A stretch of 64,000 nt of DNA from positions 3,720,001 to 3,784,000 of the forward strand of contig JASSKH010000016.1 in assembly GCA_031763025.1 (NCBI GenBank), given 5' to 3'. Each line of letters opens with the position of its first letter. The first letter of the stretch is position 1. A program made the position numbers and the translations under genes. Source of the stretch: Macrocystis pyrifera (taxonomy: Eukaryota; Sar; Phaeophyceae; Laminariales; Laminariaceae). Below the pieces are notes generated by a model. That model was not told the DNA's origin. It searched no databases and saw nothing but the letters and a program-made list of their open reading frames with translations. This document shows positions 4,261 to 63,160 of the stretch, one piece after another.

Positions 4261-4569
<309 letters not shown>

Positions 4570-5243: not shown

Positions 5244-6300
5244 CTACTCCTCCTGTTCCCCCCCCCTGCCCCCATACACTTGTACGGTGTTCCTTCTACC
5301 CCTCCTGCTGTTACCCCCCCCCCCATTCCCTCTAACACTACCTGCAGCGGATGCACGGCGCTGTCTACTCAGCTTTGCCTCAGCCTCGTGCCACCTGCCC
5401 ATGAACTGTTCAGCTGCTTCGAGGATTCCCCGGTACCACTTTCCAGTCTGTTTTGCTGCAGTGGGCCACAGTGCGGTCCCAACTCCAAAGACTAAGGGGG
5501 AGTCTTCCGTTGATCCCTCGGTGGCTTTGAACACTCTAAGGTCCTCAGCAATGGCCCTTGGCCAAGGCTTGGACTGCCCGCCTGGTTTCGGGCTCCCCCC
5601 ACCAGCGATCGTCCCGAACATCAACCGACTGGGCAATCGCCCCTCGTGTTGCCGCACCACAGCCCCCGCAAAGAAGAGTCACCGTTTACGGATGGTCGTT
5701 TCGATACTTTTGCATCGTGTTATCCTGAGCGCCTTCGCATACGAGAGGGTGGTGTGGTCGGTGCGTAGTCGGCGCTGGAAGCCAATGACTCGCAGAAGGA
5801 CTTCGTGGTGGGCTGATCGAAGCTTGGCGAAGTGGTCCGCATTGAGGGTCCACGTCACGCACCCGTACAGCAAGGTCTCAATCACCTCGGCCTTCAGCAT
5901 CCGGACTTTCAGACTAAGCGGTGCGTTCGTCCTATCGTACAGTTCCGGACCATACCGTTTGAGGCATGCCCGCATCAGACGGATTCGTCGCTCGATTTCG
6001 AAGGAGAGGTCAGCGTTCTCGTGGATAATGCCTCCTAGGTATAAAAACTGGGTCGTCTGTTTATACTTTTGGCCTGCAGCTTCGATCGCGAGCTTTAATA
6101 TTGGCTCTCCGCTTTGTAGCCCGGTTCGCGCCTTGGTTTCCGTTGGCTGGGTGCAGCCGTCCCAGCCAACTCCGACACCCCCATCCTTCCTGTCGCGCTT
6201 GCGTACCCACGCGGTGGCCAGCCTCTCCTCTCCCCAGGTTGCCCACGCAGCGCTCTCTGCTGTGGTGATGTACCCGTCCTGCCTCGGGGATGAACTCCTC
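5244..6300 (-). pseudogene. LINE retrotransposon 3' end (region after the reverse transcriptase domain), decayed
   Basis: The minus strand encodes a LINE-type C-terminal region. Recognisable blocks are FLYLGGIIHENADLSFEI, then RIRLMRACLKRYGPELYDR, SLKVRMLKAEVIETLLYGC, IGFQRRLRTDHTTLSYAKA, and RLPSRLMFG further on. These blocks follow the catalytic RT region in jockey/CR1-like elements of many eukaryotes. The RT catalytic motifs themselves are absent, so the copy is 5'-truncated. One in-frame TGA (5,679-5,681), just after SIETTIRKR, interrupts an otherwise open frame. The 5' limit near 6,300 is uncertain. Confidence 0.8.
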
Positions 6301-6862: not shown

Positions 6863-7312
6863 GGGACCATACATAGTGAATAGGACCAATATAGTCATAA
6901 TATTAATAGTAAAAATATGTAAACGTATACCTGGTAGGTTTTTGTCTGTACTGTAGGTCCTATTTACTAAAAAAAAAATTCTTCATCTCTTCTACTTTCC
7001 AGCCCACTCGTAGGAGGTTTTGCCCTCGACAATCTTCTGGACAAGCCGTGGTCACAGGTGTCGTCCCTTCTCCCCCCCGGTACGTGCCTTTATTTTTTGT
7101 CACGCATAGGGTTCAGCATTCCCACTGCTCGTCGATTTTCATCGAATGTGTAGCTAACTCACGCTCTCGCGCTTTCCGCTAATCGACTTTTCATGCAAGA
7201 AAAAGTCCCTGTGAGTTTGCACTCGGTGAGACTTGAACCCACGAAATTGATCTTGACAGGCACGCGGACCACCTACCAAGCCACCGGGGACGCCGGCAAT
7301 GGACCCCTGTAA
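6857..7312. mobile_element. MITE1 copy split by a SINE
   Basis: Left part 6,857-6,968 and right end 7,299-7,312 of one MITE1, separated by SINE copy 2. The left part also carries the word TACCTGGTA at 6,928-6,936, which other MITE1 copies lack. Confidence 0.8.
6969..7292 (-). repeat. tRNA-derived SINE, copy 2, inserted in a MITE1
   Basis: Reverse-complement copy of the 2,608-2,938 SINE, with its A-tail (T/A run) at 6,969 and its tRNA-like head ending near 7,292. The left flank is a MITE1 ending abruptly at TATTTACT. The right flank resumes at 7,299 with the missing MITE1 end, ATGGACCCCTGTAA. Confidence 0.85.
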
Positions 7313-8713: not shown

Positions 8714-8721
8714 GCTGACTA

Positions 8722-8826
8722 TTACGGGGGTCCATAGTTAACGGGACCAAATTTTGTTAGTAAAAATAGTTAAATATATAGGTTTTTATGTACACCATAG
8801 GTCCTATTAACTATGGGCCCCCGTAA
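8722..8826. mobile_element. MITE1 (TA-flanked, TTACGGGGG termini)
   Basis: Typical copy, 105 bp. Terminal inverted repeats of about 27 bp begin TTACGGGGGTCCATAGTTAA and end with its complement. The AT-rich centre is not palindromic. It is flanked by TA on both sides, as expected for Tc1/mariner-type insertion. No transposase is encoded. Confidence 0.9.
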
Positions 8827-8914
8827 TACCAGGCGAAGAACAACATCACGATGATGATGGTGATGGCCGTCAGAGCCAGATTTGAGCTTCTTGCGACCCT
8901 GACTGCGGCATTCC

Positions 8915-9013
8915 TGTACGAGTAGGAACGGTGCTAGGAACGGTGCTCCGTCTCGAGAGGGGTGCGTGGTCAATGGTCAAATGACTAAGGCAAGCAACAA
9001 ATGAGTACCCCCC
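8915..9013 (+). mobile_element. Poly(C)-tailed element A
   Basis: Runs GGAACGGTGCTCCGTCTCG, then TCAAATGACTAAGGCAAGCA, and ends ACAAATGAGTACCCCCC. It is directly followed by element B at 9,043. Confidence 0.7.
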
Positions 9014-9042
9014 GCTACCTCCCTCCTATTGTATACCTGGTA

Positions 9043-9571
9043 TATATAGGTTGGGTTGGCGTCGGTTGGCGACTACGCTGTGAATGAAACACGCCTCTCA
9101 CTGCGTGAGCTAGACAGCCAGGGTACCGTTTTTTTTTTGTTTTTTTTTGTTTGGCGGTTACCACGGCTGGCGGTCGAGTTAGATCATTTTTGTGCGGGGA
9201 GAACCTTTACTCCGCACAAGGGGGATGATCGTATCACGTATAGTGTGTATATGGTGAGGCACCCATGAGGCAGTTACATAGTAAACCCATTGCTGTCTCT
9301 GGAAGTGGCCACACCAGAAATTAAATCAGTTCATTGATGCTCTCATCCATACGCAAGAAAATCTGCCTCCAAAGCGGTTCTTAGTAGGATGCAGCTTACC
9401 CTTCATGCGACTCGCCCAACACCTCACGGCGCGTCGCGCTTGGTGCAAGCAATGTCTGCCTGGTCGGTGAAAACCCGACGTGCTCCGTCCCGGCATTGTA
9501 GGGATGCGAGAGTCTATGGTCATACGACTACGGCCATGCATGATAGTGAGTACACCCCCCGCCCCCCCCCG
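9043..9571 (+). mobile_element. Poly(C)-tailed element B, near full length
   Basis: Begins GGTTGGGTTGGCGTCGGTTGG, then passes through TACCGT, GCAGTTACATAGTA, GGAAGTGGCCACACC, AGTAGGATGCAGCTTACCCT and CTGCCTGGTCGGTGAAAACC. It ends CATGCATGATAGTGAGTACA followed by a C-rich tail. About 510 bp without tail; no coding capacity. Confidence 0.75.
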
Positions 9572-9582
9572 CTAGCCCCTAA

Positions 9583-9697
9583 TCATGTTAGAGGCGTCTC
9601 TAATAGGAGTACGAACTGTGCTCCGTCTCGAAAGGGATGCGTGGTCAATGGTCAAGTGACTAAGGCCAGAAACATGAACGTCGCCCCTCCCCCCGCC
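9583..9697 (+). mobile_element. Poly(C)-tailed element A
   Basis: Second A copy, head-to-tail behind the C tail of the B element at 9,043-9,571, with its own C-rich end near 9,690. Confidence 0.65.
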
Positions 9698-9870
9698 CAG
9701 CCTCCCTCTCGCATTGGTTGATGCCAACGGCAGGTGTCGTCGCGGTTTCTACATTTTCACGTGTCGCATTTCCACAAGCATTGCCATAGTCCCCTCCGCG
9801 TCATGTCGCCCCCCTCATCATGAAGGTATCTGTTCCGTTCTCGACCAATCGGCACCATCTGGTGCCGTCC

Positions 9871-9949
9871 TCTAATAGAGATACACCTAACGCTGAGCTA
9901 ACAGTCAGCGCTGAATGTTAGCTCAGTGGTTACGGTGTATCTCTAATAT
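9871..9949. repeat. Short palindromic element
   Basis: Arms of about 30 bp: TAATAGAGATACACC...GAGCTAAC on the left and GTTAGCTCAG...GGTGTATCTCTAAT on the right, with a short loop. The right arm looks slightly like a tRNA A box (TTAGCTCAGTGGTTA), but no B box follows. Confidence 0.55.
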
Positions 9950-10309
9950 AGCCTCCTGTGCTGCTTCGCGACACACTTCGAACTTGATCTCGAAATCCTC
10001 ATGTGGCGCGTGCTGCAACAGAGGTTCTCACTTTTTTGCGCAAGTATTTCTGACCGGTGGGACGGGGCTCCTTCAGGGCCCTGAGGAACCACCGAAGAAG
10101 GTATGCCTTATGAGGCACATGCCTTCCTTACAAGGGATATGACTTAGGAGGCCTACATTATCACCGGAATTACATTAAGTTTTTACAAAGTCCATGGGGT
10201 TGCCCATCGGGTTTGTTTTAAGTTACCGTTTTTCTCAAGAAGTGTCAGATTTGGCTGAGGCATGTATATCGAGCCCCTTGGCCCTTTTTTTTTCACTGAC
10301 TGCAGTGGT

Positions 10310-10403
10310 GCCGTTTTTGGGGGGGAAAACGACTCACTATGAACAGAATTTGATCGGTTTGTCCCCCCGAAACGGGACTGCAGTACCAAAACGGTTTGAG
10401 TGA
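10310..10403. mobile_element. Degenerate MITE2-like sequence
   Basis: Contains GATCGGTTTGTCCCCCCGAA and ACGGGACTGCAGTACC as in MITE2, with a weaker left arm. Termini not clear. Confidence 0.5.
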
Positions 10404-10509
10404 GGGGTCTCAGAAAAAGATAGGCGCATCCCCACCGCAGCGTGCGTCGTGCACTATATATACTACATACAGTATGCACAACAACAGCACAGCAATTATT
10501 GTTGTGGTA

Positions 10510-10614
10510 TTACGGGGGACCATAGTAAATAGGACCAAATATTGTCAGTAAAAATAGGTAAATACATAGGTTTTTGTGTGTACCATAGGTCTTATTTACT
10601 ATGGTCCCCCGTAA
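10510..10614. mobile_element. MITE1
   Basis: Complete 105-bp copy of the GTAAATAGGACC sub-form; flanked by TA (GGTA on the left, TAGTGG on the right). Confidence 0.9.
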
Positions 10615-10653
10615 TAGTGGATCGGTCCTTTTGGACTCCCCACTTGCTTCTTC

Positions 10654-10890
10654 TTATTCTGCTCTCCGATGTGCCTGGCGGCCCTTGCCCCCGACCAGCC
10701 CCGTAAGCATCACCCTCTTCGGCAAGCGCCCCCCTCGCACGCGGGCGATACAACCCGCGGACACAATATCCTCCCATTGAGTACCGTCGCCCCCGATGCT
10801 CTTGGACCCGATCTTGACGAGCGCGTCGGCGTAGGACATGGCACGTTCATCGTGTTTCCATTTCCACCAGGCGATGCATTGGTTGAGCAA
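10654..10890 (-). pseudogene. Second LINE 3'-end fragment
   Basis: Weak relative of the same class: AMSYADALVKIGSKSI resembles the TTLSYAKALRITRCKSI block of the 5.2-6.4 kb copy, and RLPKRVMLTGLVGG resembles its RLPSRLMFG block. Very short and clearly non-functional. Confidence 0.55.
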
Positions 10891-11060
10891 GGAGTGGCGA
10901 TCTTACTGCACCTTTTGTCGAGGCAAGTCTTTGCTCGGGCCGCGTCCCGCGTCACGCTTCCGTGCGGCTACCACTTTATTTCGGTGTGCGCACCTAAGCT
11001 CTTTTTACTCGTTCAAGAAACACTAATCCCAAGCATTTCCTTCCCAACAAAATGAGGGTG

Positions 11061-13285
11061 CAATCCTGAAGAGGTCGAGGTGTATACACACGCTGTAGCG
11101 GTCACCATATAGTCCTAACGCACATGGCTCAGACCCCCTCCTCCTGCACAATGTGGGCATACAAAAAAAATCATTACATTAAACAATGTAGCATACCATC
11201 TGGCGTACCGCCTTGAGACGTTTGTCCACACCTTGAGGGGTTTGGCTACGTTCTTCAATGTCTTGTCTCCGTAATATATTTTTTACACCCACGTTGTGCA
11301 TGGGGGGGGGGGGAGGTCCCGGACGTCTTGTGAATCTGTGTCGCCGGAATCATGATGATTGCCCTAGGTCCGTTGCACACGCGGCGCAATCTCTCCACTG
11401 AGGTCGCCGTCTCTTGAGATGGCCCCGCCCAAGTGCCCACCGAAGCTGGCGCGGCCGTTTTTTTTTTCCTGACGTGAGGCAAGAGTAGGAAAACGACCAT
11501 GACGGCGACAAGGGAGAGCGAGCAAACCAGCGAAAAAGGGGGTAAGGAAGGAGTGAAGGAGGGCGGGGGTGGGGGAGGGAGGGAGAGGGGTGAAGGACAG
11601 ACAGTGGGGCACTTCGTTTGTATACCTGGTCGGCTGCAGGACCAGGGCTAATGGTACCTACCCCTCGCGTCTTTCGTCAGCAGGTGCATGAATGGTTTCC
11701 GTTTGGGCCTCCCGAGACTGCCAGCCCGGGCGCCGCGCACACCATGGCAATCACCGCCGTTCAAGCTTCAAGCTTCGAGCTTGCACGTATGTACTTATTT
11801 TCGTATTTCTCGCTTCGAGCAGCAATAAACTGTTGTTGTATGATATTATCATGTTGGTAGCTTACGGAGGACTGTTTTGAGCGGAGACCCCCGCCAACAG
11901 GTTGTGAGCGTCGGGTCACGTATCCGCAGAGCTGCAAGTCACGAGGTGCATCGAGTGAAGACTACCTGCGGCCGAAGCTGCTGCTTCCACTGCTGTGAAA
12001 TTTACCACAGAGGCGCCGGGACCATGACGGTCTGGGGTAGGTGCAACGAGCTGCAACTTACTTCTTCTGCAGAGACCTGTGGTGAGCGAATACCGTGTAA
12101 CACGGGTGATGAGACAACACCCCCCCCCCGGGCGAATTGCCCACTCAATTTTCTCGACAACAGGGAAGGTGCAAACGCCGAGCGATGCGCTAATTTTATG
12201 GAAATCTCTCGACGAGATATTCCCCCACTGAGTTTGGGGAAACTCGACTCGGAAAAATTGTCCCAGAGGGGAGGGGGGGTGTTATCTCATCACACGTCCA
12301 TGTGATGCGGTAAAACCGTCGGTGGGCTTGCAAATATATGAAAATGGATAATACTACCGGCACCACCACGAGCAACCTCATCAACGCCGCACAAAGAATC
12401 AAGCCAAACAACGGCGAGAAAACTCGAAGACTTTCGAGAACTACGGCACGAAAGAGGCACGCTTTATTCTCAGCGTCTTGGCATATTTGGTGTAGTGTGG
12501 AAGGATAGGCCCAAGTCAACCGAGGAAACGGACCACGAGCGGAAGCGAACAAGGAGGACGCCGGAATCGAGTTGGCGGTCGATTTGGAAGAAGATTCGAC
12601 GACGTCTTCGATCAGGGATCTCCGTTTTAGCCGCTGGTGAAAGCCTCCGGCGCCGAATCACCAACTACAATACCTGGGGGGGTCGCGGAAGAAAAGTTGT
12701 CATGCGCCGGTGCAGCATCATTTCAACCACGAGGTCATCGCGGAGACGTTTTCATAGGATGGTTGCGAACATCATCGCTTGGGGTTACCGGTAAAGTCAC
12801 CTTCCGGAATAGAGGCAAAACCTCATCCGATGGGACTGCCGCACTTTCATGAATGGCCGCAACAGCGACGAGGGGTCGCCGGGGAGGCTGTAGGTGTCTT
12901 TCGTCATCGGGTGGCAGTATCCTATCGGGATTGTCAGGGGAGAACGTGCTCTGGAATGGCCGTATCATCATCTTTTCGTTCAGGGCTGCTTGAACGTCTC
13001 TCTCGGGGGTCTCGCTAGATTTTATCGTTGTTTAGGACTGCGCGTGAACGTCGTTCCTAGGGTCGCTGAACACCGTCATCACCGCTTCGGACTGGGCGAG
13101 GATATTGTCTGGGGTCGCTCCGCCATCATCTGGATCGCCAGGAGGACATAGTCTGCCTTTCCTGGTGGCACGCCAGGCCGGTGGAAATATTTATTGTGGA
13201 GTAGAGAACCATGCGTCTTCGTCGTGCGGAGGAGCGGCAAAAACATGTTAGACTTCTTGGCCAACGAACAAAACTATTATTAATA
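11061..13285. other. Intergenic, no gene recognised
   Basis: Several open frames on both strands, none with a recognisable domain. 12,300-13,260 has balanced composition and could be a decayed gene or element; nothing in it identified a family. Confidence 0.35.
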
Positions 13286-13390
13286 TTACGGGGGTCCATA
13301 GTTAACAGGACCAAATATTGTTACTAAAAATACCTAAATATATAGGCTTTTATGTATGCCATAGGTCCTGTTAACTATAGACCCCCGTAA
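13286..13390. mobile_element. MITE1
   Basis: Complete copy with both termini and flanking TA. Confidence 0.9.
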
Positions 13391-15060
13391 TAGTAGTCGT
13401 TGAAATATTGCACGTTCTTGGGATGTAGCCGTGAGGTTTGGCAGTACCATATAGTGGGAGCGTAGTAGTGTAGTATATAACGACTCTCTCTCTTGCGCAA
13501 CGTCAAGCGTTAACTAATGTCAATTCAACACCGTGCCAGGACTGAGTGTTCGTTGTATTTTAGAAGCAAAAGCCATGGGTATATTGGTAGCAGTGTATAA
13601 TTAACACAGACGCTGATGCTGCTTGACTGGCGTCCTTTCAGACTTGAAATCTACGGCCAATGCCGGCGTACTCTGTGGTATCTATTTAACGCGCGGAAAT
13701 GTGGTAGGCGGTACCTCCGTCCTGGCACATGTACAGAGTAGGACGTGTCTGTGTGGGTTCCATGTGGTGACCACGGACAAATGAATAGTTTGCGGCCGTA
13801 CGTAAGGACAAACAACAGCTATATTGGCGTATATCTTGCCTGGTGCGTATCAAGGGGGGGAGAAGGACCCAATCGGGATACGCACGGGCGTACAGATGGG
13901 GTACGTTCGTGAAGATCATGGCACCTGCAGGTATACACGTTGCGTAGAAAAAACACGTACAATGTCAACCACGAGCAGTGTGTCCAGATAGTCATCCGAG
14001 AATATATGGAGTGACTCGTTCGACCCAAGATTCAAGACTGGTATTATATACGAGACAGGCCCTTCTTCAGTTTTAGTATAATAAGGCAGGACTGTAATTC
14101 TTCATTTTTTTGTTGAAGCGTGCGTGATGCGTTGTGCATCGGCGGCGCGTGTTCTGCATTGTGTTCAATTAATTTATTCCTCTCGTGGAGGTCATACCGG
14201 CAGATCATCAAAGGTAGATATGACCGGTAGATCATAGCTAGACCGATGAGAGACTTCCTCCCTGGTCCCTGGACCTTGGATATAGTCACTTTAACGATGT
14301 TTACTGTTTCAAGAATCTAGAAATTTCGGCCCGAAATAATCCTGCACATAGAACTCCAAGGTATCCATCCGTTGGCCGTTGGGTTAGTTAGGAGCTACTG
14401 CTGCAGCAGCTGCGAGTTGGCACGTTCGAGTGTCCCGAGATGTACGACATCTATCTACTGCAGTTGTGTGTGTCAACAGCAATTGTAATTCCCTTGCACC
14501 AACGTACGTACGTATTTCATACCTGTACCCATGTACGCCACCCTCTCCGACTTGAAGGACGACAACAGGTGAAGAAGGAGTAGTACTACAGGTCGGAAGC
14601 AGGTAACGAAATGAGCTGTCTGCTCACGACTTGCATGCACACTCTATACGGTGAAAAAATGTTCCATGTTTGTTGCAAGACAGCAGTCTTCTTGACAAGC
14701 CGAGGTCATATAGGCACAGTACGTAGAAGCAGGTGTCTTTCTTTCCCCCACCCTGGTCGTACACCTCTGCCTTGATAATTTTCATCGCGCAGAGGATTCA
14801 TTCAGCATCCCTCCTGCGACTTCGGCGATTTTCGTCGAATTTGAGTGGATGGGTGTATATTTAGTGTATAATCGTACGAATGGCCTACGAAGGACAATTC
14901 CCGGTAGAAGGACGGAAAAGGGGAGCTCGACGCTATACAGGTATGGACTTTGAATTCAAGTAGAATATATTTTTTAATGTTTTTGTACGTATTACTGCTA
15001 CATGACCCCATAGATAAGCTCAGAGGGAACCGAGCTGACACGTAGCCCCCCCACGCCCCC
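13391..15060. other. Intergenic, no gene recognised
   Basis: Low similarity to anything recognised, except the SINE fragment at 14,690-14,850. Confidence 0.35.
14690..14850 (-). repeat. Diverged SINE body fragment
   Basis: Resembles the SINE body (GACAAGCCG, TTCAGCAT, CGATTTTCGTCGAAT in the same order and spacing), but clearly diverged and without the tRNA-like head. Confidence 0.55.
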
Positions 15061-15067
15061 CCTCGCG

Positions 15068-15144
15068 GCTCCGTGCCGGGCATTCGAGGGTCTATGGTCG
15101 CCACGGCCATGCATGACATGAGTACCCCCCCCCCCCCCCCCCCC
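15068..15144 (+). mobile_element. Element B fragment with poly(C) tail
   Basis: CTCCGTGCCGGGCATTCGAG to CATGCATGACATGAGTAC, then a run of about 19 C. Confidence 0.65.
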
Positions 15145-15944
15145 GGCCTTGGTTAGCGTTTCCCAACGATGATAAATTCGGTAGCATTGGCTGTCTAGAG
15201 CTGCACGCGAATCGTACAGTCCTCCCTGCATTCATCACAGCTGGGAACCCCTGAGGATACCGACGAACAAAAAATTCGTTTGTCGTGTCGTACGTACGGC
15301 CTATACAGAAGCCCTGTAGGAAAGACCAGAGACAGTGACTGCTGTGCGCTATGTTTCCAGCAGCAACAGCAGTACGTACCCTAAAAATCCGTCACAAGAT
15401 CCATATTCACGCCCGCCTCGCGTGAAGCCCGGTGCTCACCGTGGCCCTTCTTCGTCACTTCGACAAAGTTGGTGCTCAAACTGCATTGAAGTTGAAGTTT
15501 AGTTTGGTCGCAAAAATAAGCACCGCTTAAATATTACTTCGCATATCACAAAACGACCCTTATATCTCGTATATGGTGCAAGCGGAGCCTCACAAGGAGG
15601 CCAGACAGAGCCCATTCGTGCTTCCTGCGTGTCTCGAGACACACGCGACGCCTAGCCATGCAAACGGCGACGGCGCTCCTTGCAACACCCCCTCTACCTG
15701 CTAGCACCCGCTGACACCCGCGGCGGCACCGGGCTCGCCCGCGGTATACCGTGTTCTGACTACACGCACGCGCACGAAACGAAATAAAATGGCTTCAGGT
15801 TATATATAAGCAACGCTTGACTCGTATCTGGTACATACGTTCGTTTGAACACGAGTACAGCAGTACAAGTACAAGAAGGCGCTTCTATTGACGAACGTAG
15901 TGTTTGTTCGAAAATATAAGCTGTACCGGGACATTGTTTGCCAG

Positions 15945-17036
15945 AAAACGGTATACCTTGACAGAAAATATCATATGACTTGGGTTTATTAAGGATGATA
16001 CTTGTCAGTAGCCATCATAGTCGTTACTCGATAACACTTGCGTCATCTGGTATACATTTACGCCTTTCTAAGTACCGCGGACAGTTTTCCAGTCTGTGAG
16101 TAGTATTACTGTAGCAGTATACAGCAGCAGCAGTCTTACAATAATATCTACTGCTGTGCACTCGTGCATATTGCATAATAATAGGTCTCAATAACAAGCA
16201 GCGCATCGTGGATCTACTGTATTACGTACGTACAGAATCTACAGCCAGCAGCACACATGTACAGCAGTACCTGGTGCGTGCGCACTGGTAAATAATGGAC
16301 AGGGTATCTTCAGTATCCCGTCGGGACCAGTAGCATAGTTTTAGTTGTGGTTGAAGTAACAATATATGCTACAAGAGGGTCATGAGTACGTACCCCAAGT
16401 TTTATTGTTTTTTAGCAGTAGAATTGCGGGTCTCCGTGTTGTTTTTATATTGAACTGAATGCAAGGGTATTTCCCTATTTTTGTTTTTGAACGAATTTGT
16501 AGGGGTCGTCCTTTGTTTCGAGCAGTGAGCGCACACGCGCATCGCTCCCCTTTGAGCTCACTCTACTTTTGCTCACCATCATCAGCTTCCAGCTGAGCAA
16601 ATGAACCAACACTGTGGCTTGGGGTCACCACATCTTCTTCTCTTCTATTGAAGCTTCTCGTACAAGTCACCTAACAGTGGCTATACGTTTGCCTCGAACA
16701 TTTATTTTGACTGTGGATTGACCGGCCATCGGCAATCGAGTCTAGGCGTACACACCAGCTACGAGCTGGTATACACGCCAATCGCCATACCTAATAGGGT
16801 TTGGTGCCCTGATCACCTCGTTTGTCTTTACGTACCGTAAACTAGCAAAAATACGATGGTGTACCGTTTTTTGGAATTTTTGAGAGTGAGACGGACGGAC
16901 ATGGATGTTTCGCCTAAAAAACGGTATACCTTGACAGAAAATGATATCTTACTTGGGTTGAGTGTACCCTGATGGCCTGGTTTGAGTTTTTCGTACCGTA
17001 AAATGGCAAAAAAGCGCTGGTGTACCGTTTTTTTTT
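15945..17036. mobile_element. MITE3 pair: one intact copy (16,916-17,036), one split copy (15,945-16,872)
   Basis: The intact copy has 15-bp inverted ends AAAAAACGGTATACC and GGTGTACCGTTTTTT. A second copy has its left third at 15,945-15,991 (AAAACGGTATACCTTGACAG) and its right half at 16,800-16,872 (CGTACCGTAAACTAGC to GGTGTACCGTTTTTT). About 0.8 kb of other sequence lies between. Confidence 0.7.
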
Positions 17037-18394
17037 TGTCATTTTGTCCGTTAGGACAGGAAATTAATTTTGCTTTTAGATTACCCTAGGGTAAAACCCT
17101 AGGGAATAGGTCAGCATTGTTCTTTGAATTATGATGCAAATAAATGATAAAACATCAGTCGGCCTGTCGGAAGCTATAACCACCGTGCCAGCCAGGTAAT
17201 CTCGGCCGGTTGTCTGATCGCGACGACAGCAGTTACTTGTGGTGGTGGTGTGGTGCTGCCTATCTCTTTCTGTAGTCGCTCATGCATCTGCTGGCGGCTA
17301 AAACTCTCGGTGGTCAAAGCTCAGCAGCAGAAGCAGCAGCAGCTATTATAATACCCGCAAAAAAAAAACTATGCGTGCTATTATTAATGCTCCTCAAGTG
17401 AGTTCAGAGAAAGGGAGATAACTGGAGTGAGCGATAGTGGGCTTCGCCAGGAACACAACTCAGCCCCGACGTCGACCAAAACCAACCTGTATGCAGTTAC
17501 GGTCTATCGGGACGTTGTCATACAGAAGATTCCCAACTATAATAGAATGTTCTCTACCGGGACATTGTCATACAGAAGGTTCTCAGACTTGTAACATAAC
17601 GTTCTGCGGGCAAAGGGGATGTCTTAACTGCTCCACTGAATATTCTCTAAGAGCTACAGCATGTATAACCACAAGATTTGCCTGCAGTTATATTCCTACG
17701 ATACTACATACTATATAATATGCGTCTACAGGTATGTCTGGTGTCTGCAAAGAGCTATGTGCAACCATACAAGGATCCGCGTACGGGTATATATGCGTTC
17801 CTATGCAATGGATGTGGTACTCCATCACATTAGCCCACCCTGAATAGTCGTAGATGCAGATCACACGGCGATGCAAGGATGATGATCATATCATCCCAAA
17901 ATCGGAAAGAGGGATCGAAGATGCGGCTATTCAACACAGAGATGAAGTGATAGATCTACCCCACACCTCGTAGTGAGGCTTCGACGCCTCATTCAAGAAA
18001 TAACCGAATATCCGGAAGGGGAAAAAAATAAAACGCAAGAAACCAGCGAAGGCGCAAGGCCACCGCCGACTATGGTTTCGGCCGCCGAGCAACGGTGGCC
18101 GTACTTCCAAGGTCAGCGCCGACCCGCCCCCGCGCACCCGCGCCCACGGACAAGGGACCACCGAGTCCTTCCGAACCAACAACCCCCCAGGCCGTGCCGC
18201 CCACGCAACCAACGCAGCTCGCGCTGCGAGCGTCCATGGGCTCAAGATCGCCTTCGGCACCATCTTCTTCCCCACCTAGGCCCTATTTTTTTCTTACATG
18301 TACTATTTTGGGAGAGTGTTATAAGGATTACCCTGGGCTGGGTACAATATCGATCAATTACCCAGCTCAGGGCAATCCTTATAACAAATAGCAC
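17037..18394. other. Intergenic, no gene recognised
   Basis: Includes a two-unit tandem repeat at 17,505-17,590 (CGGGACRTTGTCATACAGAA) and the inverted repeat at 18,319. A proline-rich frame on the plus strand (17,973-18,410) is not recognised. Confidence 0.35.
18319..18386. repeat. Inverted repeat (possible MITE)
   Basis: GTTATAAGGATTACCCTGGG pairs with CCAGCTCAGGGCAATCCTTATAAC across a loop of about 20 bp. Single copy in the window. Confidence 0.6.
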
Positions 18395-18495
18395 GAGTTT
18401 CCTGGGTTAAATCTGTACTATGCAGATCCTGCACAACCTGTCACAACGGCAGGCGAGGAACTAGATGATCCACTGTAGATAGATCAGATAGATTA
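18395..18495 (+). repeat. GATC-rich dispersed repeat, partial copy
   Basis: Contains GCAGATCCTGCACAACCTGT and GATCCACTGTAGATAGATC. Relatives at 20,472-20,680 (reverse), 28,605-28,815, 42,040-42,310 and 49,740-49,935 (reverse). Confidence 0.65.
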
Positions 18496-18976
18496 TGACC
18501 TGGCTAAGGTGTGCACTACTGCTGTCACCAGACGGTTTTTACAGCGATTATCCGCGTCGTTTTCGACCCTATACCAGCGCCTCAATGCATGCAATGCAGG
18601 AGGCTTCACAGCAGGAAGTTGCATATTTTTTGGTGTGGCATAAAACGAACTGTTGTCGGTCAGAGGCCAGAGTTGGTCAATGTAAACCAAGCACAGCAAG
18701 CAGCGATGCTGACAGTGTATTTCCTGTCTGGGCGTATAGCGTAGAGCTGAACTCCAACCCGCGCCCGCGTTTCGGGTACAGCTTACTTGGAACTATAAGT
18801 AGAGTGAGATAATATTTGCAGTTGTAGCGTTGTAGCCAATGGCTTCATGGTTGGTTTGCAGCTACCAATAGCTACAGCAGCTTGAAAAGAGCTGCGAGTT
18901 CAGCACTGCACTGATGGTGCAAGCAGTGCTTAAATGCTAGTCGGTGCACTAAAACAAAATAGCACGGTTGTCGTTA

Positions 18977-19069
18977 ACCCTCTTAGGACTGCAGTCCCGT
19001 TTGGGGGTCAAATTGCTAAGAACTTGAGCGGTTTGTCCTCAAAATGGGACTGCAGTTCTAAAAAGGTTA
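18977..19069. mobile_element. MITE2 (TTAA flanks), standalone copy
   Basis: TTAACCCTCTTAGGACTGCA on the left, inverted equivalent ending AAAAAGGTTAA on the right. Arms of about 40 bp include GACTGCAGTCCC and GGTTTGTCC. TTAA on both sides. Confidence 0.8.
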
Positions 19070-19809
19070 AGCTTCCATAAAGCCAGTGTCCGGAGGTAAA
19101 TCGATCAGAACCTTTCGCCACATTATCGACGTAGTTTCGACCCCCCCTGTTTCTCCGCCACTCTTCCGCTAAACCCAGCACGCGGTACCACACATCCAAT
19201 CCTGAACACTTCTTCGAGGCATTACGCCTTCCCACGTATGGAGCGGAAGCGTTTCTGGCTACATAATACCAGGTACACGTCTACTCGCTTGTGCACGCAG
19301 AAAAGACGGGGTGGGCTCGTGATAGGCGGCACCGCGGCCTCGGCGGCGAAAACGTTTGCCACATCCTACCCGCGACGCACTTGGGGTACATACGGCAGCA
19401 ACAGCGGCGATGACGACACACTAGAAAGAAACGCGTTACCATACGTCGCTGTAACAAGCGCCCACAAGCACAAGAAACAAGAAAACAAGCACGCCCGGAC
19501 TCCCTCCCTCCCCCCCCTCCCTCTCCCCGCTCCCGCGGTCAACCCTATTAGAACTCCACCCGTGTGTTTGGGGACAACCTCGTGTACGCGAAATGGAGTT
19601 GGTTCATAGTTGCAGGATTTAAAAGGGTCAAGTTGGATAACTGTTGCAGGAATGAAAGGATTGTTGTCCGAAACTTTTTCTCGCTGCAAAAATCGTTCGT
19701 TCAAGTCTGCCAAATTCCAAAAAATAAAAAAGCGACCCCCAAAAACGAGGGTGCAGTAGCAGTATTCGTAGCACAAAAGTTGGACTCCGTACTGTATGTA
19801 TATGTATCC

Positions 19810-32053
<12,244 letters not shown>

Positions 32054-32255
32054 GGTTTCCCCAGTGCCCTCGGCTCTCAGATACCCTTTGCTCCGGTAAT
32101 CGCTTCCCTCTGCTGGCTCGTTGGTTGGTTGCCTGGTCAGTGGGGTTTTCTGTGTTTTTTTGTCTGGCTTCAAGGAGAAATATCCCCGAACCGTGATCCA
32201 TATTTTCAAGATTGGAACTCCCACGGGACTGTGGTGTGTGAGGCAATGGGAAGGA

Positions 32256-32292
32256 CCAATGGGAATGACCAGGATAGTGTCATTCCCATTGG
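32256..32292. promoter_or_regulatory. Perfect hairpin with facing CCAAT boxes upstream of KRR1
   Basis: CCAATGGGAATGAC (32,256-32,269) and GTCATTCCCATTGG (32,279-32,292) are exact inverted repeats with a 9-base loop. They lie about 205-240 bp upstream of the KRR1 start codon. CCAAT is the NF-Y binding core, so a promoter role is plausible but not shown. Confidence 0.5.
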
Positions 32293-32492
32293 AGAGGACA
32301 TGACAGCCAAAAGATATGATCGGCCTGCCGTGACCAACGGCCAAATGGCCATTTTCCTGTCAACTCTATTAATAGCGTTTGCACTCTGTCCTGGTGTGAC
32401 TCCACCACACCTCCGCCCCTCCTCATCTTCCTCCTTCTCCTCCTCCGCCTTTCATTGACGACCTCCTTCCGCAGTACCGCCAGCCACTACTA

Positions 32493-32584
32493 TTACGGGG
32501 GACCATAGTAAATAGGACCAAATATTGTTACTAAAAATAGTTGAATATACAGGTTTTTGTGTCCTATTTACTATGGACCCTTCA
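32493..32584. mobile_element. MITE1, right terminus truncated
   Basis: Starts TTACGGGGGACCATAG; internal deletion near TTTTTGTGTCC and the end stops at TATGGACCC without CCGTAA. Lies about 440 bp upstream of the KRR1 start codon. Confidence 0.85.
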
Positions 32585-33233
32585 ATACTGCTGTTGTGTC
32601 CACCGGGCCAGCCCACAACCAGATGCTGCGGCGCACACGGGGTTGGGTCACGCGATGAGATCTCGCTAGTGGAGAGACGCCGCCTAGCCTGCTTGGAACC
32701 GATCGTGAGGGTGTGCCTGCCTGGCCTGCCTCGACTTTGGTCCCCAGTGACGTGTACCCGCGTGCATGCCCGCCCCGGGGGCCACGAGGTGTTTCGGCGA
32801 CGAACACGCCATCACCAGAACGTATCACAAGTCAGAGAAGACTGTGCCCGCCTGCTGCTCCTGCATGCTGTGTCCCCTCGTCGGACCGCAAGCATGGGCG
32901 AGCAATCCGGTATTCTGAGAGAGCGGTGAGCGGCATCGTCCTCTGCTTCCTGGGCGGGACTCTCGACGCTTGATTGATCATTGCACGTGCTGAATTGATG
33001 ATTACGTTGTTGAGCGTTGTGCATTCATGCCCGGCTTTCCGGTACAAGCGGCTTCGTACCTGATACCGTTTTTTCGGTTCGTTTTGGTGTTGGTTTGATG
33101 GTGCAGCTGCTGTGTGTAGCTGCTTCGAAAGGATAGAGAAAAGACGGGCGAAAAAAACAAATGGGGAGAGCAAAAAAAAAATCGATTCGTGTGAGAGTAG
33201 CGCTGTGACCACGTACTATCCAACGGCCGCCAA

Positions 33234-33370
33234 ACCAGGTCCCGCCGAGCTAAGACGAAGATCCAAAGTGGGTCCAGGACACAGAGATGCCAAGCAATTT
33301 TCTCAGGTCCCGCCGAGCTAAGACGAAGATCCAAAGTGGGTCCAGGACGCAGAGATGCCAAGCAATTTTC
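33234..33370. repeat. Exact-looking 68-bp tandem duplication
   Basis: CAGGTCCCGCCGAGCTAAGA to GATGCCAAGCAATTTTCT, twice, with a single visible difference (GGACAC or GGACGC). Confidence 0.9.
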
Positions 33371-33852
33371 TGTTGCTTGTATTGTTGTGGATTCTCTGGC
33401 GTGTTTCGTACGAGATAATAGCTTTAAATTTAGCGAGAGTTTGAATTGTTGATATTCCGTACCAGATACCTGGTATATACGTACAACAAAACAAGATTAA
33501 TAGCGACGGTTGCAATATGTATCAAGCGAGAATCTGTGTGTTTCTACGTACGTTTTTTTGGGGGGTTTTAGCCAAAATCAGGTATAACACAAGGCCACTT
33601 TAGGGCCAAAACCAGTCACATACTAAAAACAAGTACAAATCACACGCCAGAAGCCCTGCTTTTAGCCAGACTGACATCGTACTTGATTTAGGCTCAAACA
33701 GGCAAGGGTATACCTGGCTTTGTCTACTCTATCTAGCTTTCAATTGATTTTGGCGAATTTTGAACCAATCAGAGAGGCCATACGTTCACGTTTTTTCTCT
33801 GCGCATGCGTCTGCGGTCCCTCGGTTGCTAATCTTGCGCATAACTCTGTACT

Positions 33853-33903
33853 CGTACGTACGTACGTACGTACGTACGTACGTATGTTTATTTACGTACG
33901 TAC
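33853..33903. repeat. (ACGT)n self-complementary repeat
   Basis: Eight or more ACGT units in a row, then a short gap and three more. Every unit is its own reverse complement, so the tract can form a cruciform. Confidence 0.85.
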
Positions 33904-34268
33904 GGTGAATTCACTTTTTCTTGTTTGGGGTGTACGATGTGCTTCAGTTGTTGTGGTGTGTACTCTGTTGTTTTCTATGCTCACAGGAGTCGTATTACAA
34001 GCAGTACCTACCGTGGATACACACGACAGTTCGTCTGCCCCACCCCGCGTCGAGGCGGTCTCAGGTTTGGTACGGCAAGATAATTTCGTGTCGAGCAAGC
34101 GGTTCCGCGAGGATGGTCGAGAAGCTTCAAAGCTGGCACCGGGGGGGGGGGGGGGGCGCCAGAATACTCTTGGCGGTCCGGCCGTGGCGAAACAAACGAA
34201 GCCTGCTGACCCTCTGCAGGTCCCAAGTGGAACCCGTGGTACCTATACCCAAAAGAAAACAAGAAAAT

Positions 34269-34531
34269 TCAGATTTTGGAGGCCACACGCTTGATGTTCA
34301 GGCGCAGTTGTTTTTGAAAGGATTTTCATGGACCAAACGCTGCTCGTGGCGCGCATTTTTACTTGGTTCTAGTAATACCTGATTTGGACCCAAATGGATC
34401 AGATTTTGGAGGCCACACGCTTGATGTTCAGGCGCAGTTGTTTTTGAAAGGATTTTCATGGACCAAACGCTGCTCGTGGCGCGCATTTTTACTTGGTTCT
34501 AGTAATACCTGATTTGGACCCAAATGGATCA
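34269..34531. repeat. 131-bp tandem duplication
   Basis: CAGATTTTGGAGGCCACACG to TTGGACCCAAATGGAT repeated without visible change. Very recent. Confidence 0.9.
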
Positions 34532-35347
34532 ATCAGGTGCACCTGATTTTGGCCATAGCCCTTTTTTTGTCTCCGGCTGATCGTTCAAAACATAAAAATA
34601 TAGCTACTGTAAACCTCATCACATTTCTCAAGTCAACTGTGCCGTGTGTCGAATAAGCTCCGGTTCAGAGCACAACTGTACCGCCGTGGCAAACACCAGT
34701 ATGATGAGTTCGTCGACCCGGCCTCACTCTCCTCCTATCACAAAGTATTAAGCGCGGTGGAGATAGCCTTGGTTTAACGAAAAAATGAGTTTTGTTACCT
34801 CCATCGAGGGGTCGTGTTAATGATAGGTTCATGCTGTAGTAACAGTAGCCAGTAGTCTATCGCGTCGCTGATCGGTGGCACACAGTCGTCTATGGCAGAC
34901 AGACGCCCTGCACAGCTTGTCTACGAGTAGTCAATACTCGCAGTACTATTGAGTGCCATCACACCAAGCGTCGCATAAGTCGATCTATTTTACTTGGCAG
35001 TCTGGCAGCCAATATGCGGCGCAACTCCTTGCTCAGTAGTTGCTGTCCGGTATTCGGTGCAAGTTCGTCACACGAAGGCCCTTGATCGATGGACGGGACG
35101 CTGGCGATACCGTGGAGAAAGGGTCGACCTCCACGAGCAAGCAGCAAAGAATCATTGCAAAGGTTCGGCCAGTACAGCAGTACAATGAAATGACCCGAGC
35201 GGTACCATTAGGGCCCGAGCGTGTATCTTACTAACACCATGATCAAGGATTGCCACGCCCACTTGATGAGGCGCAGAAAAGCGGGCTGCGCCACGCAGCT
35301 GAGGACGCCAAGAACGGCGACAAGAGGAGCGCGGCGGGGGCAGGGGG

Positions 35348-35387
<40 letters not shown>

Positions 35388-37047
35388 CGTACTGATACAG
35401 CTGTCGATGAATGCGGAAATGAAATGTGGCTACAACAGGTATCGTATCGACTATATAGCCCTTGAATTCTAGCACTTTTGCTGTGTTTCTTGTTGAATTG
35501 TTCAATTGGGGGGGGGGGGCGCGACAGCGGCCGTACTGACACTTGACACCGCTATTGACGAGAGTAGGAAGGAGACGGCAAAAGGGTACGGCTAGGCTCC
35601 CGAATCGGTTTTCTAGCAGCGACGGGCACCCACGTTACCATCACTGCCTGGCGTACGATTTTCTCTTTTCTCCCTTCTTGCCTTGTCTCTCCCTCTGTTT
35701 CCTTTCCCCTCCCCGCCAACCTTATGCAGGTATCTTCCTCTCCTTCACGTTGCTTCGTGCAGCAGCTATCTGTCCTTTTTGGGTACGTATGCTTTCCTTC
35801 TAGCAGCCTTTCTTTCTGATCTCCTTGCGTCATTTCTATTATGTTTCGTTTCAGATTACTTTTCATTGTTTTGTCTTTTTCGTTTTTATTTTATTGGCTT
35901 GCTTGTGTTGTGTTGTCGTACCCGGTACGCTGGCATTTCACTTGTTTTTTAAATAGGAATATGAGATAATTATTCGTTTTTGGTCCTTCTCTTGTCTCAC
36001 AGTCTGTGACCAAAGAATTAGTGTCTCTCTGGGATAAGGAATCAGGACTCAGTCTGGGTGTGCTGATGAAGCCGGGTAGGAAGGACGATTCAATGTGAAG
36101 ACAACACACACTTCGTCCACTCTCTCATTTGCCTTCGTCTTGCTTTGTTCCACCTTTGGCCCAGAGATCACCACCTTTCAACGCGCATCATGAATTTCTC
36201 CCGGGCGAAGCTCACAAGCCAACCGAACACGGCTCGTGCGAAGCCTCCAGAGTAGGCAGAGTACAGCAGCAGTAGTCCGTCCATCACCCTGTCACATGGG
36301 GATATTCCGCCAACACATACCATACAAGATGCATGCACCATATCGGGTATTATTGTTGAACGCGTATTGCGTAGTGCCGACCTATATGGTCAATATACCT
36401 GGGGTGTCTGTAGAGTACCTCTTATTTGAGCACAACTGTTGAAAGTATGCCATACGACACGAGGATGCACTTCTCGCAGCAAACTCCTCCCCCCCCCCCC
36501 CCCCCCCTGGAAACTGTTGCTTGCAAGTCCTAAATCGCCCGTGTACCGAAAGTTACACCCCTCAAGTCGCTCGCGAACTGCTCAGTTTTTGTGCAATCGA
36601 CAGCAGAACGAGCAACACAATCAAACAAGCGAACTACCTGGTAGCTCTTAGACGCGGCTCTGGCGACTGCTGTTGCTCTTGTTCGACACGTACTATACGC
36701 CTTCTCTTCATCAAACTACGCCTATGTTACGTATAAAACGTGAAATAAATATCGTACCCAATGTACTGCTGATCGCACTCATCGCGCCTGACGTCTGACC
36801 TTACCGCATGAGGGACCCCCAAAAAATAACAAGTAAATGCTACCTGTACCGCGAGGTACAAAACATAGGCATGTGTGTGGACCTTCCAGCAATGCAGGTT
36901 TCCACGCCGTCCAACAGAGACCCTATCGATCAATTCCTTTTGCTGCGAAAAGCAATCCGTGACGCGAAGCCACCTAAGTCATGCGGACGGTAAATAAAGC
37001 TCCATGCTGCAGAACGAAATCTTCGGCGATCACAGTACCCTGCCCAA

Positions 37048-37084
<37 letters not shown>

Positions 37085-37798
37085 CTGCTAGTATTGATTT
37101 GTTGCTTAGATATGTCTTGCCACGCCTACTATGCCAGGACACCGCTTGCGCATCACCAGGCATTGTCCATCAGCTCCAGTAACCACGAAAATGCGGTAAC
37201 CTCTGCCATCGATCAGAGGCAATAGCGAAAGCTGCCCACAAGCCACTGTGAGAGCGTTGGTCTCGCCGTCTTCATCGTTTCTCTTGATATTCACGCACGC
37301 ACGTGCGACGCCGAAAAACACAATATGTTATCTCCGCTTATTTCCAACGAGTGCCGGAAAAAGCACGCCCTAAGAGAGAATCGCCACGTCGGCGATCTTC
37401 CGCGTCAGCGGCGGGCGGGGGATACTCAAGCTGCGCGGGGAGTGCTTCCTGTCAGCACACCGGCCTGCAGCATCAGCGAAGCCGCAGGGAAATAACTTGG
37501 CGTACGTACCAAATATACATATTGCGGCGGAATGAGAAAAACCGCACCGATGTGCGTGCACACATCGACTACATGCATACGTAAAACGTGAATCAACCCA
37601 AGCCCACCCCCCCTAAAACGAAACACACCAGGTATACCGGCAGCCTACACACTCCGTACTAACTATACCATGCAACGTATTCAGCGAGGCAAGTAGTAGC
37701 AGATCCACGGAGTAGATACAGTAAATTTACTCACTTGCGTGCACCACAAAAATCCATCCGCACCACAGGTATACCGCAAGTCTAGAGCCGCCCAATCA

Positions 37799-38124
37799 TT
37801 TTTTTTTTTTATCATCACTTTTACTTTCCAGCCTAACTCGTAGGAGGGTTTACCCTCAGCGATCTTCTGGACAAGCCGTGGTCACAGGTGTCGTCCCTTT
37901 TCCCCCCCCGGTACGTGCCTTTATTTTTTGTCACGCATAGGGTTCAGCATTCCCACTGCTCGTCGATTTTCATCGAATGTACAGCTAACTCACGCTCTCG
38001 CGCTTTCCGCTAATAATCAATTTTGTGCAAGAAAAAGTCCCTACGAGCATGCACTCGGTGAGACTCGAACCCACGAAGTTGATCTTGACAGGCTCGCGGA
38101 CCACCTACCAAGCCACCGGGGACG
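37799..38124 (-). repeat. tRNA-derived SINE, copy 3
   Basis: Reverse-complement copy of the SINE at 2,608. A/T tail at 37,799-37,811 and tRNA-like head (A and B boxes) near 38,060-38,124. It lies in the intergenic region between KRR1 and RDR. Confidence 0.85.
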
Positions 38125-39986
38125 CATCATACCATACAACGTCGAGCCTAGCAAAAAAGTAACAGATCAAACGGAACGGGTAGATAAGATGTACAAAAAA
38201 TACGTCCACCACTCAACAATATTGCGCACCTGGTATACGCCAGCAGTCTGGATACTTGTGATACCAGGCCAGAGGCAAGCCTAATAAATCGTAGATTCAC
38301 GGAGCGGGCAGATCTACGCAAGCCGTGCACCGCGCGAAAAAGGATTGGTCATACCTGGGTATATATACCCACAGTTCACATATTTACTTTACCCTGCACA
38401 AGTCAGGCATAATACCTGAATCGCGGTAGATTTACGGCATGGGTAGACCAACGAACGTATGATGCGTACCTACACCATGAAGGGGAGGTGAGGCGGCGCA
38501 CTACTTGCGGAAACCATTCGTGGTTCGTTTCTTCCTCCGACTCACGAGTCCACGTCCAGGCGCCACCACGCCCCTTAGCGACCGACTCGGACGATTCGTG
38601 GTTCGCTTCTTCCTCCGGACCTCGAGTCCACGTCCACGCATCACCACGCTCTTTTTATTCTCCTTCATATATATATATAACCCCGAGGAGAGGCCGTCAA
38701 GTGGTCCAACCATCAGAAGCAAACGAGCGTCGCCCGGCCGACTTCGGAGACATACTTCTCCCAAGAATTGCGACAAGAAAATTCACGACGACACCTACAA
38801 GATATCCTCCCTTTACGGGGGGGGCGCATAGTAAATAGGACCAAGTATTGTTATATTAGAGTAACCGGAAACCCGGGAACCAGGGGACGCTTGGGTGCCA
38901 GCGTCCTCAGAAAAGTTCCGGGTACGTACGAGTATACTAATAGAATGTTGTACCCGTACCCGTACCCATACTCGCACCCGGGTATTCATCCAAGGGCATA
39001 CTCTTACCCCGGGTATTGTGCCACGGGCGTACGAAACTTAGAGAAGTTCCAGATACAGGTAGAATGTACTGAAAAAAGTGAAATATATAGGTTTTTGTGA
39101 GCACCGTAGGCCTTATTTACTATGTGGTCCCCCGCAACAGGGGGTCTTCGCTTCGTCGTATGTCGTTCTCCTCTTGAAACGATACCGAACACCTGAACAA
39201 CGACACCCACCCGATAGGTTTGTCGCTGCTGGCTGTCGGCTTTTTTTGGTTTCTAACCCCCAGCCATCAGTGGAGGAACGTTTTCTGACGTGCCTGCTAC
39301 TACCTGCGGCCGAGGTTCCAGGCAGGAGAAGTACGGTGGTTGAACACAAACAATCTATCGGAGTTTCCGATCTCTGATACCGTCGCGAGTGCTATGCTGC
39401 TTCGCTTGTCATCAGAACGCCCGAACCCCCCACCACACTCCCGCCGTGCGCGCACTAGAAACCCAGACCCTGTGTCATCGACACATGGAGCCCACCGTGC
39501 AGCTTACGCGCAGCCGCACCCTGCACTATAAAACCAGACCCTCGTCCCATCACCCTTGTATCGCCGACCGATGAAGCCCGTCATGCAAGTGCGTACGCGC
39601 GCGGAATCAGTCGACTCGCACCGGGCATTCGAACCGACAGAACAAGAAAAACAACAGTCAGCTCACCGGGGTCGGCGTTCGGATAGCCACAATAAACCCT
39701 TTCCTCTTCAAAATGTGAGCAACAATGATCTGAGTCAAGCTTTCATGGAACCTTGTCCCCATCGCGGAGTCCGGTTCTAAAGGGGCCTCTCAGGAAGAAC
39801 GGTCACTTCGACCCGCGACTGGTTTAACTTCGCGTGCGACGGAACTGCAGCCGCCAGAAACGGCGGCGGCGACCGTCCAAGACTCTCACGAGAGCGAAAA
39901 TCCGGCGACGCCGCCACACGTTTACACGGTACTATTTAATACCAAGTAGTCTTCATCCTGTTGATCTGACATAGCTGCTGGTGCGC
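38125..39986. other. Intergenic region downstream of RDR
   Basis: No gene recognised. Contains the interrupted MITE1 (38,813-39,137) and a repeated CGACTCACGAGTCCACGTCC-type duplication near 38,505-38,650. Confidence 0.4.
38813..39137. mobile_element. MITE1 interrupted by a GGGTACCCG-rich insertion
   Basis: Left end at 38,813 and right end at 39,137 belong to one MITE1. About 200 bp in the middle (38,864-39,068) is foreign and contains repeated CCCGGGTAT/TACCCGTACCC words. Confidence 0.8.

Positions 39987-63160
<23,174 letters not shown>

Follow-up and report, generated by a model that had tools for sequence, protein, structure and literature searches.

What kind of element ends in a run of C? 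Poly(A) and short-repeat tails are the accepted mark of LINE and SINE insertions. The stretch of Macrocystis pyrifera DNA analysed here (64 kb, hereafter the window) holds two dispersed families, A and B, with a common 3' end followed by a C tail, an observation that we confirm. Our reading, a LINE with a SINE-like passenger in which cytosine takes the role of adenine, supports in part and corrects in part the interpretation given by the first-pass annotation.

A common 3' end and C tails

Copies were collected by profile search in the window and in 28 further loci (L004-L011, L012-L031), yielding 140 copies (51 A and 89 B), 138 of which reach the 3' end of their model; removal of 15 copies of the near-duplicate loci L008, L011, L027 and L028 left a non-redundant set of 123. 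Copies were assigned by best score between the first A model and the second B model, the first A model being kept because more iterations pulled in B copies. The additional loci were picked for holding GAGTAC-C10, so that tail counts in L004-L031 are biased and window-only figures are given alongside. Genome-wide pattern counts cover the whole assembly (537,376,219 bases, 223 contigs), which the available text of its publication describes as 537 MB in 35 scaffolds and 188 contigs, obtained by PacBio sequencing of a haploid gametophyte (PMC10498591).

At least nine A and over a dozen B copies had been claimed for the window, and this count stands: the profiles detect 9 A and 16 B copies with aligned 3' ends, to which three very short B ends recognised by eye can be added (Table 1). 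The claim that copies end at one place and run into 10-100 pure C holds for the common end position, whereas the exact letters and run length apply to the better copies only. Exact GAGTAC terminates 16 of the 25 window copies (4/9 A, 12/16 B) and 71 of the 123 non-redundant ones, the remaining copies showing GAGCAC, GCGTAC, GAGTTC and other variants. The first C-run of at least 5 within about 50 nt on the 3' side has a length of at least 10 in 14 of the 25 window copies and of 5-9 in 11, and starts no more than 3 nt from the element end in 14; several B copies carry a repeated end, ATCGAGTACA, between the element end and the C-run. The longest runs adjoining copies measure 86 and 93. A C-run of at least 5 lies within 30 nt on the 3' side of 112 of the 123 copies, a figure biased by the choice of loci. 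The opposite end varies, as described earlier and as in 5'-truncated retroposons, with B starts spanning positions 2 to 487 of the 512-position model. Ends fixed on both sides were not found: among 80 B copies, 70 are shorter than the 10 that begin within positions 2-6.

The pattern common to A and B matches the window seven times, against none in 100 shuffles, and GAGTACCCCCCCCCC occurs at 7229 sites genome-wide (3580 + 3649) versus 46 (25 + 21) for the reversed pattern. Homopolymers of at least 20 nt in the window comprise 7 of C and 11 of G, and none of A or T. Among its 31 C/G runs of at least 15, 13 are tails, four are 5' flanks only and 14 are neither; two of the 14, at 41916 and 52544, adjoin short B copies found by eye. 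A C39 run at 35349-35387 (-), preceded by ...TATCAGTACG, which is GAGTACG-like, has no A or B similarity that could be found upstream and possibly marks a further element family. Beside these, the window contains 12 sites of a palindromic MITE-like family of about 110 bp with the ends TTACGGGGG...CCCCCGTAA (Table 1), as well as tandem repeats with 73 bp units at 51499-52041 and 24 bp units at 49360-49554.

Table 1. Copies of families A and B and MITE-like sites in the window, with adjoining C-runs (read on the sense strand of the element).
Element	Position	Strand	3' end and tail	5' side and remarks
A	8927-9008	+	C6, then C-rich	tblastn match to P0122
A	9584-9683	+	degraded 3' end	5' side inside C-rich tail of B 9039-9553
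A	21840-22001	+	C-terminal codons, stop TGA, GTA before C-run; C33 (22002-22034)	LINE 3' end, 84% to P0122 residues 598-655; TSD 21821-21839 (C7 + AGTAATACTTCC) and 22036-22051 (C4 + AGTAATACTTCC)
A	25664-25722	-	degraded end and tail	profile and P0122 match
A	41424-41588	-	GAGCAC; C9 (41414-41422)
A	50734-50798	-	C18 (50715-50732)	no C-run of at least 5 within 40 nt
A, diverged	53358-53431	-	GCGTAC; C86 (53271-53356), then directly B 52960-53270
A	59324-59378	-	followed by short B end 59293-59323
A, longest in window	59626-59828	-	C19 (59606-59624)	C10 (59832-59841); 89% to P0122 residues 591-655
B, near full length	9039-9553	+	C-rich	begins after C-rich end of A 8927-9008
B, strongly truncated	15068-15125	+	C20
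B	21595-21792	-	C11 (21576-21586)	no C-run found
B without last bases	23195-23315	+	C8-T-C93 (23305-23406)	C-rich
B chain	25771-26068	-	C17-B-C15-B	B at 25924-26047 and 25771-25878
B	41645-41868	-	C12 (41631-41642)	C11 (41871-41881)
B, short end, by eye	41890-41915	-		C19 (41916-41934)
B, near full length	47540-48049	+	repeated end, then C15 (48069-48083)	C20 (47506-47525)
B, truncated	48219-48287	+		after C-run (C9, 48212-48220)
B, diverged, full-length 5' end	48721-49237	+	C32 (49237-49268)	C10 (48698-48707); 3' part 49130-49237 lies after C-rich spacer and shows CTTCATGCGACTCGC again; either a single copy with an interruption or two copies side by side
B, 5'-truncated	50164-50522	-		directly after C10 (50523-50532)
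B, very short end, by eye	52517-52543	+
B, 5'-truncated	52960-53270	-	repeated end, then C12 (52929-52940)	directly after C86 of A 53358-53431
B chain	54984-55294	-	C28-B-C19-B-C22-B-C23	B at 55207-55269, 55076-55162 and 55027-55055
B, very short end, by eye	59293-59323	-		adjoins A 59324-59378
B, 5'-truncated	61319-61585	-	degraded; first C5 run 40 nt off	after C18 (61588-61605)
MITE-like	8720-8828, 10508-10618, 13284-13393, 21362-21471, 27379-27489, 29048-29159
MITE-like	43472-43579, 52394-52502, 53549-53657, 53835-53945, 54076-54186, 54273-54376

Coding capacity of A and the 3' domain shared with B

Neither family had been thought to code for protein, and a partner enzyme elsewhere in the genome was postulated. 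The non-coding description holds for B only, where the longest ATG-initiated frame measures 61-71 codons in two copies checked. A carries the C-terminal codons of a reverse transcriptase ORF, with a TGA stop overlapping GAGTAC, and judging from this translation it is the 3' end of a brown-algal non-LTR retrotransposon (LINE). The LINE with a GAGTAC-C terminus that had been sought as a partner is therefore the parent element of A, and A itself represents its truncated 3' end. The ends of two predicted proteins from public sequence, P0121 and P0122 (655 aa; RVT_1, E=2.3e-32), closely match the translation of A, and tblastn to P0122 recovers seven of the nine A copies in the window, those at 53358 and 59324 giving no match. 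In L005 and L011, decayed reverse transcriptase sequence runs into A and then into C35 and C29, respectively; the frame upstream of A in L011 contains stops and frameshifts, its RVT_1 match (E=2.5e-05) staying under the curated cut-off, and no intact kelp LINE ORF or copy was retrieved among the loci examined. A non-LTR-type reverse transcriptase is thus found together with a common 3' end and variable 5' truncation.

Named relatives of the LINE are mostly from Ectocarpus, which provides the best ones, with one from Sphacelaria, and they support the brown-algal origin of the DNA. The Ectocarpus relative P0199 (973 aa, 59% identity over 99% of P0122) contains RVT_1, matches L1 ORF2p chains with E about 1e-27, and carries a similar motif, NNAPSSRGRVVNGLTAK, at its end. 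An Exo_endo_phos match (E=5.2e-07) at the N-terminus of P0240, another Ectocarpus protein with sequence overlap to P0199, leads us to infer that the kelp LINE has an endonuclease, probably of the apurinic type. Between the reverse transcriptase and the C-terminus of the LINE lies a cysteine-histidine motif, CPCG...H....C. Some predicted proteins read past the end of the element (P0167 with ...EYAPPSPP, P0145 with ...MSTPSPPP and P0152 of Ectocarpus with EEYVPPT), which is suggestive only, within the limits of codon degeneracy, of a C end that is not confined to this assembly. Some A copies (8923-8947, 41487-41523) carry a 12-bp motif, TAGGAACGGTGC, in two or three tandem units, and a unit of 12 bp leaves the reading frame of A intact.

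Other candidates were set aside. A second abundant LINE (window 5274-6149 on the reverse strand with 4261-4568, and L032 1-5250) has an endonuclease and a reverse transcriptase, with 1097 aa open in L032, and was rejected as partner with microsatellites, not C, downstream of its frames; these differ by copy, (TAC)102 in the window and (CATA)n in L032. For this LINE, the 150 reverse transcriptase matches that were scored, from 7470 candidates, had near-equal scores. At L025 4964, considered as a LINE end, no reverse transcriptase was recognised by eye in the translations. The A/B pattern matched three IMG/VR contigs, all in one and the same protein-coding stretch that is neither A nor B, and had no match in GTDB contigs. 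With P0122, 17 stretches in GTDB fitted the peptide pattern, none of them confirmed, and one in IMG/VR, likewise unconfirmed. Three proteins filed under Parasphingorhabdus/Hyphomicrobiales MAGs (P0001, P0134 and P0141) resemble brown-algal LINE fragments, P0001 matching the window at 99% with a query coverage of 55%, and are probably host DNA in bacterial bins.

Near-full-length B measures about 530 bp and starts near TATATACCTGGTATATATGGGTTGGG. Its last ~70 nt are homologous to those of A, with 50 of 66 aligned consensus columns identical, and this same stretch is coding in A. B is short and non-coding and has a LINE-shared 3' end, as expected of a SINE, and we regard it as a putative non-autonomous, SINE-like passenger equipped with the 3' domain of the LINE; to judge from this shared domain, it would depend on the LINE. 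The scan for tRNAs in the window, run with bacterial settings, returned none, and no Rfam match at E<=5 lies over any A or B copy; of the 27 Rfam matches within this limit in the window as a whole, none reaches the gathering score, and 22 are to microRNA families. Nearly half of the A copies (20/43) start at model positions 95-104, where the shared 3' domain begins. The predicted folds of the A and B tails are alike, multi-branched and closed by GUGCUC/GAGUAC (z -2.0 for A, -0.7 for B). Pairs were counted in those 40 of the 123 copies, 38 of them distinct, whose 3' domain is complete and recognisable; no covariation in this set exceeds the shuffle control (91.1% vs 90.9% of cells paired). RNAalifold prefers a different, weak structure for the 3' domain. 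Thus, the shared fold is unproven and we dropped conserved RNA structure as proof. A subfamily of B, e.g. at 48025-48068 of the window, has the repeated motif ATCGAGTACATCTCTC(C/T)TATCGAGTACA ahead of the C tail.

C-runs on the 5' side and a possible route of insertion

C-runs also adjoin most copies on their 5' side, which the first-pass annotation had missed. In the 30 nt 5' of the element, a run of at least 5 C is present in 93 of 123 copies (random 5.6%) and a run of at least 5 G in none (random 5.5%), and the window alone gives 19 of 25 for C versus 5.0%. By class, such runs precede 9 of 10 full-length, 30 of 41 mid-length and 27 of 29 short B copies, and 27 of 43 A copies. They end no more than 3 nt from the element in 52 of the 123, while 30 copies lack any C-run in the nearest 40 nt on this side; opposite-sense runs of at least 8 within 30 nt were found in 0 of 138 copies. 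The profile start of A is not always the true 5' end, some starts being limits of the model; a longer LINE query shows copies that begin after C in L029, L024, L012 and L019, and copies that begin without it at L014 9093, L021 4796, L022 3652 and L022 8493. Copies also cluster by strand. Neighbours less than 130 bp apart form 38 same-strand pairs versus one opposite pair, where random placement gives 8.1 and 8.3, and the spacers of the 38 consist of at least 80% C in 14 cases and at least 60% in 28.

A clear target-site duplication (TSD) of 16 nt, CCCCAGTAATACTTCC, surrounds the copy at 21840, with C7-AGTAATACTTCC before the element and G-C4-AGTAATACTTCC after its C33 tail; the C7 lies within the 5' copy of the TSD, and the target therefore held C's already. 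No convincing TSD was found in the remaining 122 copies. One of the 123 copies has a TSD of at least 12 nt with at least four non-C letters, where shuffling gives a mean of 0.55 and a maximum of 3, and because long TSDs outside C are not enriched, a target duplication inside C is not demonstrable; cuts of both strands within a C-run would leave a pure-C duplication, which is invisible. No pre-insertion empty site was found, which weighs against targeting of C.

On balance we consider it probable that A, as the 3' end of a LINE, and B, as a SINE-like element with the same 3' domain, insert into C homopolymers by G-primed, L1-like target-primed reverse transcription and that their tails become new targets. 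The LINE endonuclease would nick the G-strand in or beside a C homopolymer, and the freed ...GGGG-3' end would pair with a 3'-terminal C-run of LINE or B RNA and thereby prime reverse transcription, which would often stop early and lead to 5' truncation. Second-strand joining would also take place in the C-run, and with both junctions in C any target duplication would therefore be mostly C. Overall, this would amount to the L1 process with C/G replacing A/T, in which the C's of the RNA might derive from a transcribed donor tail with internal priming or from slippage at the start, alternatives that the data do not separate. Each deposited tail would be a site for further insertion; carrying C tails and sitting in C stretches, A and B may build their own landing sites. 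Tail-only insertions would leave bare C-runs, and the 14 of 31 C/G runs of at least 15 without a profile-found copy fit such events without proving them. More tentatively, and with somewhat less than even confidence, we propose a brown-algal LINE lineage for which the C homopolymer is tail and target alike: G-ended DNA would act as primer, the last codons of the ORF as RNA recognition element, and insertions, even of bare tails, would spread the habitat, so that the C/G runs of kelp would be largely its product.

It is rather unlikely that replication slippage after insertion lengthened short C tails or C-rich targets to which the element itself had added few C's. Tail lengths do vary widely, near-duplicate loci with 95.7-98.9% identity differ by a few C (10, 11 and 12 C in L027, L026 and L028; 12 and 16 C in L004 and L008), and at 21840 a C7 in the 5' TSD contrasts with the C33 of the tail. 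However, slippage alone accounts neither for the sense-strand link on the 5' side nor for same-strand clustering; it may be an additional contributor alongside G-primed insertion into C-runs.

Less likely again is that the 5' C's were made during insertion, by the reverse transcriptase switching to another RNA at its C tail or by untemplated addition, so that no C-rich target would be needed. Head-to-tail chains such as 54984-55294 could be concatemers from one event, and very short B ends between two C-runs (L022 3991, L007 1503) point the same way; however, the C7 in the 5' TSD of copy 21840, the C/G runs without A or B and the 5' C-runs of full-length B argue against this.

Homopolymer length is a weak point of PacBio-type data. 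The C-runs come from a PacBio-based assembly for which Canu correction is mentioned in the available text (PMC10498591), and run lengths may indeed be inexact; that the runs as such are assembly or sequencing artefacts, an objection anticipated by the first-pass annotation, is highly improbable given the 7229 sites against 46 controls, their orientation with the elements, and proteins of other sources (P0167 and P0145) that read past the end in a manner consistent with GAGTAC plus C. Hardest of all to credit is that A and B have no relationship and both just happen to settle in C-rich DNA. The blastn searches brought up no similarity between the two families on the 5' side of the last ~70 nt, but the homologous 3' domain and the same GAGTAC-C end contradict this idea.

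Significance and known systems

If true, a pair of elements that has C tails, targets C and numbers thousands of copies would widen the signature of retroposons, and annotation looking for A-rich tails only would miss it. Such a pair could account for the richness in C/G homopolymers (18 runs of at least 20 nt in the window versus no A/T run that long), and give a natural system for the use of G-ended primers by reverse transcriptase. It would also provide a LINE that hardly has a 3'UTR and in which the end of the coding sequence is at once the 3' domain present in the passenger. Among the matches listed in the open-licence literature, no title describes a LINE or SINE with a poly(C) tail.

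In human LINE-1 and Alu, the tail homopolymer matches the target homopolymer, copies are truncated, and insertion into the tails of older copies occurs. The kelp pair would be alike in all of this, but has C/G for A/T and, in the LINE, an ORF that stops just a few nt short of the tail. Dong targets a microsatellite. There are LINEs specific for microsatellites and others specific for RNA genes, and the kelp LINE would resemble the microsatellite-targeting ones, such as the HERO families, Togen at (TG)n and Dong, in inserting into simple repeats; the microsatellite-specific LINEs named in the available text are of the restriction-like-endonuclease type, whereas the kelp target is a C homopolymer and the endonuclease probably apurinic-type (PMC4640811). 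Stringent-type LINEs such as ZfL2-1 and ZfL2-2 of zebrafish recognise the 3' tail, according to the text available to us (PMC4176376), and by analogy the kelp 3' tail domain, being common to LINE and passenger, is presumably recognised by the LINE protein. Unlike in ZfL2-1 and ZfL2-2, this domain is LINE coding sequence and ends in poly(C) (PMC4176376). The closest parallel by description comes from another brown alga: RTEX-N1_Ec32 of Ectocarpus, a non-autonomous element of ~600 bp with more than 6000 copies, has its 3' end in common with the autonomous RTE-X LINEs RTEX-1_Ec32 and RTEX-2_Ec32, much as B has with A, while the available main text mentions neither a poly(C) tail nor a C-run target (PMC12477816). 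Likened on these grounds, B and A look like the kelp counterpart of RTEX-N1_Ec32 and the RTE-X LINEs.
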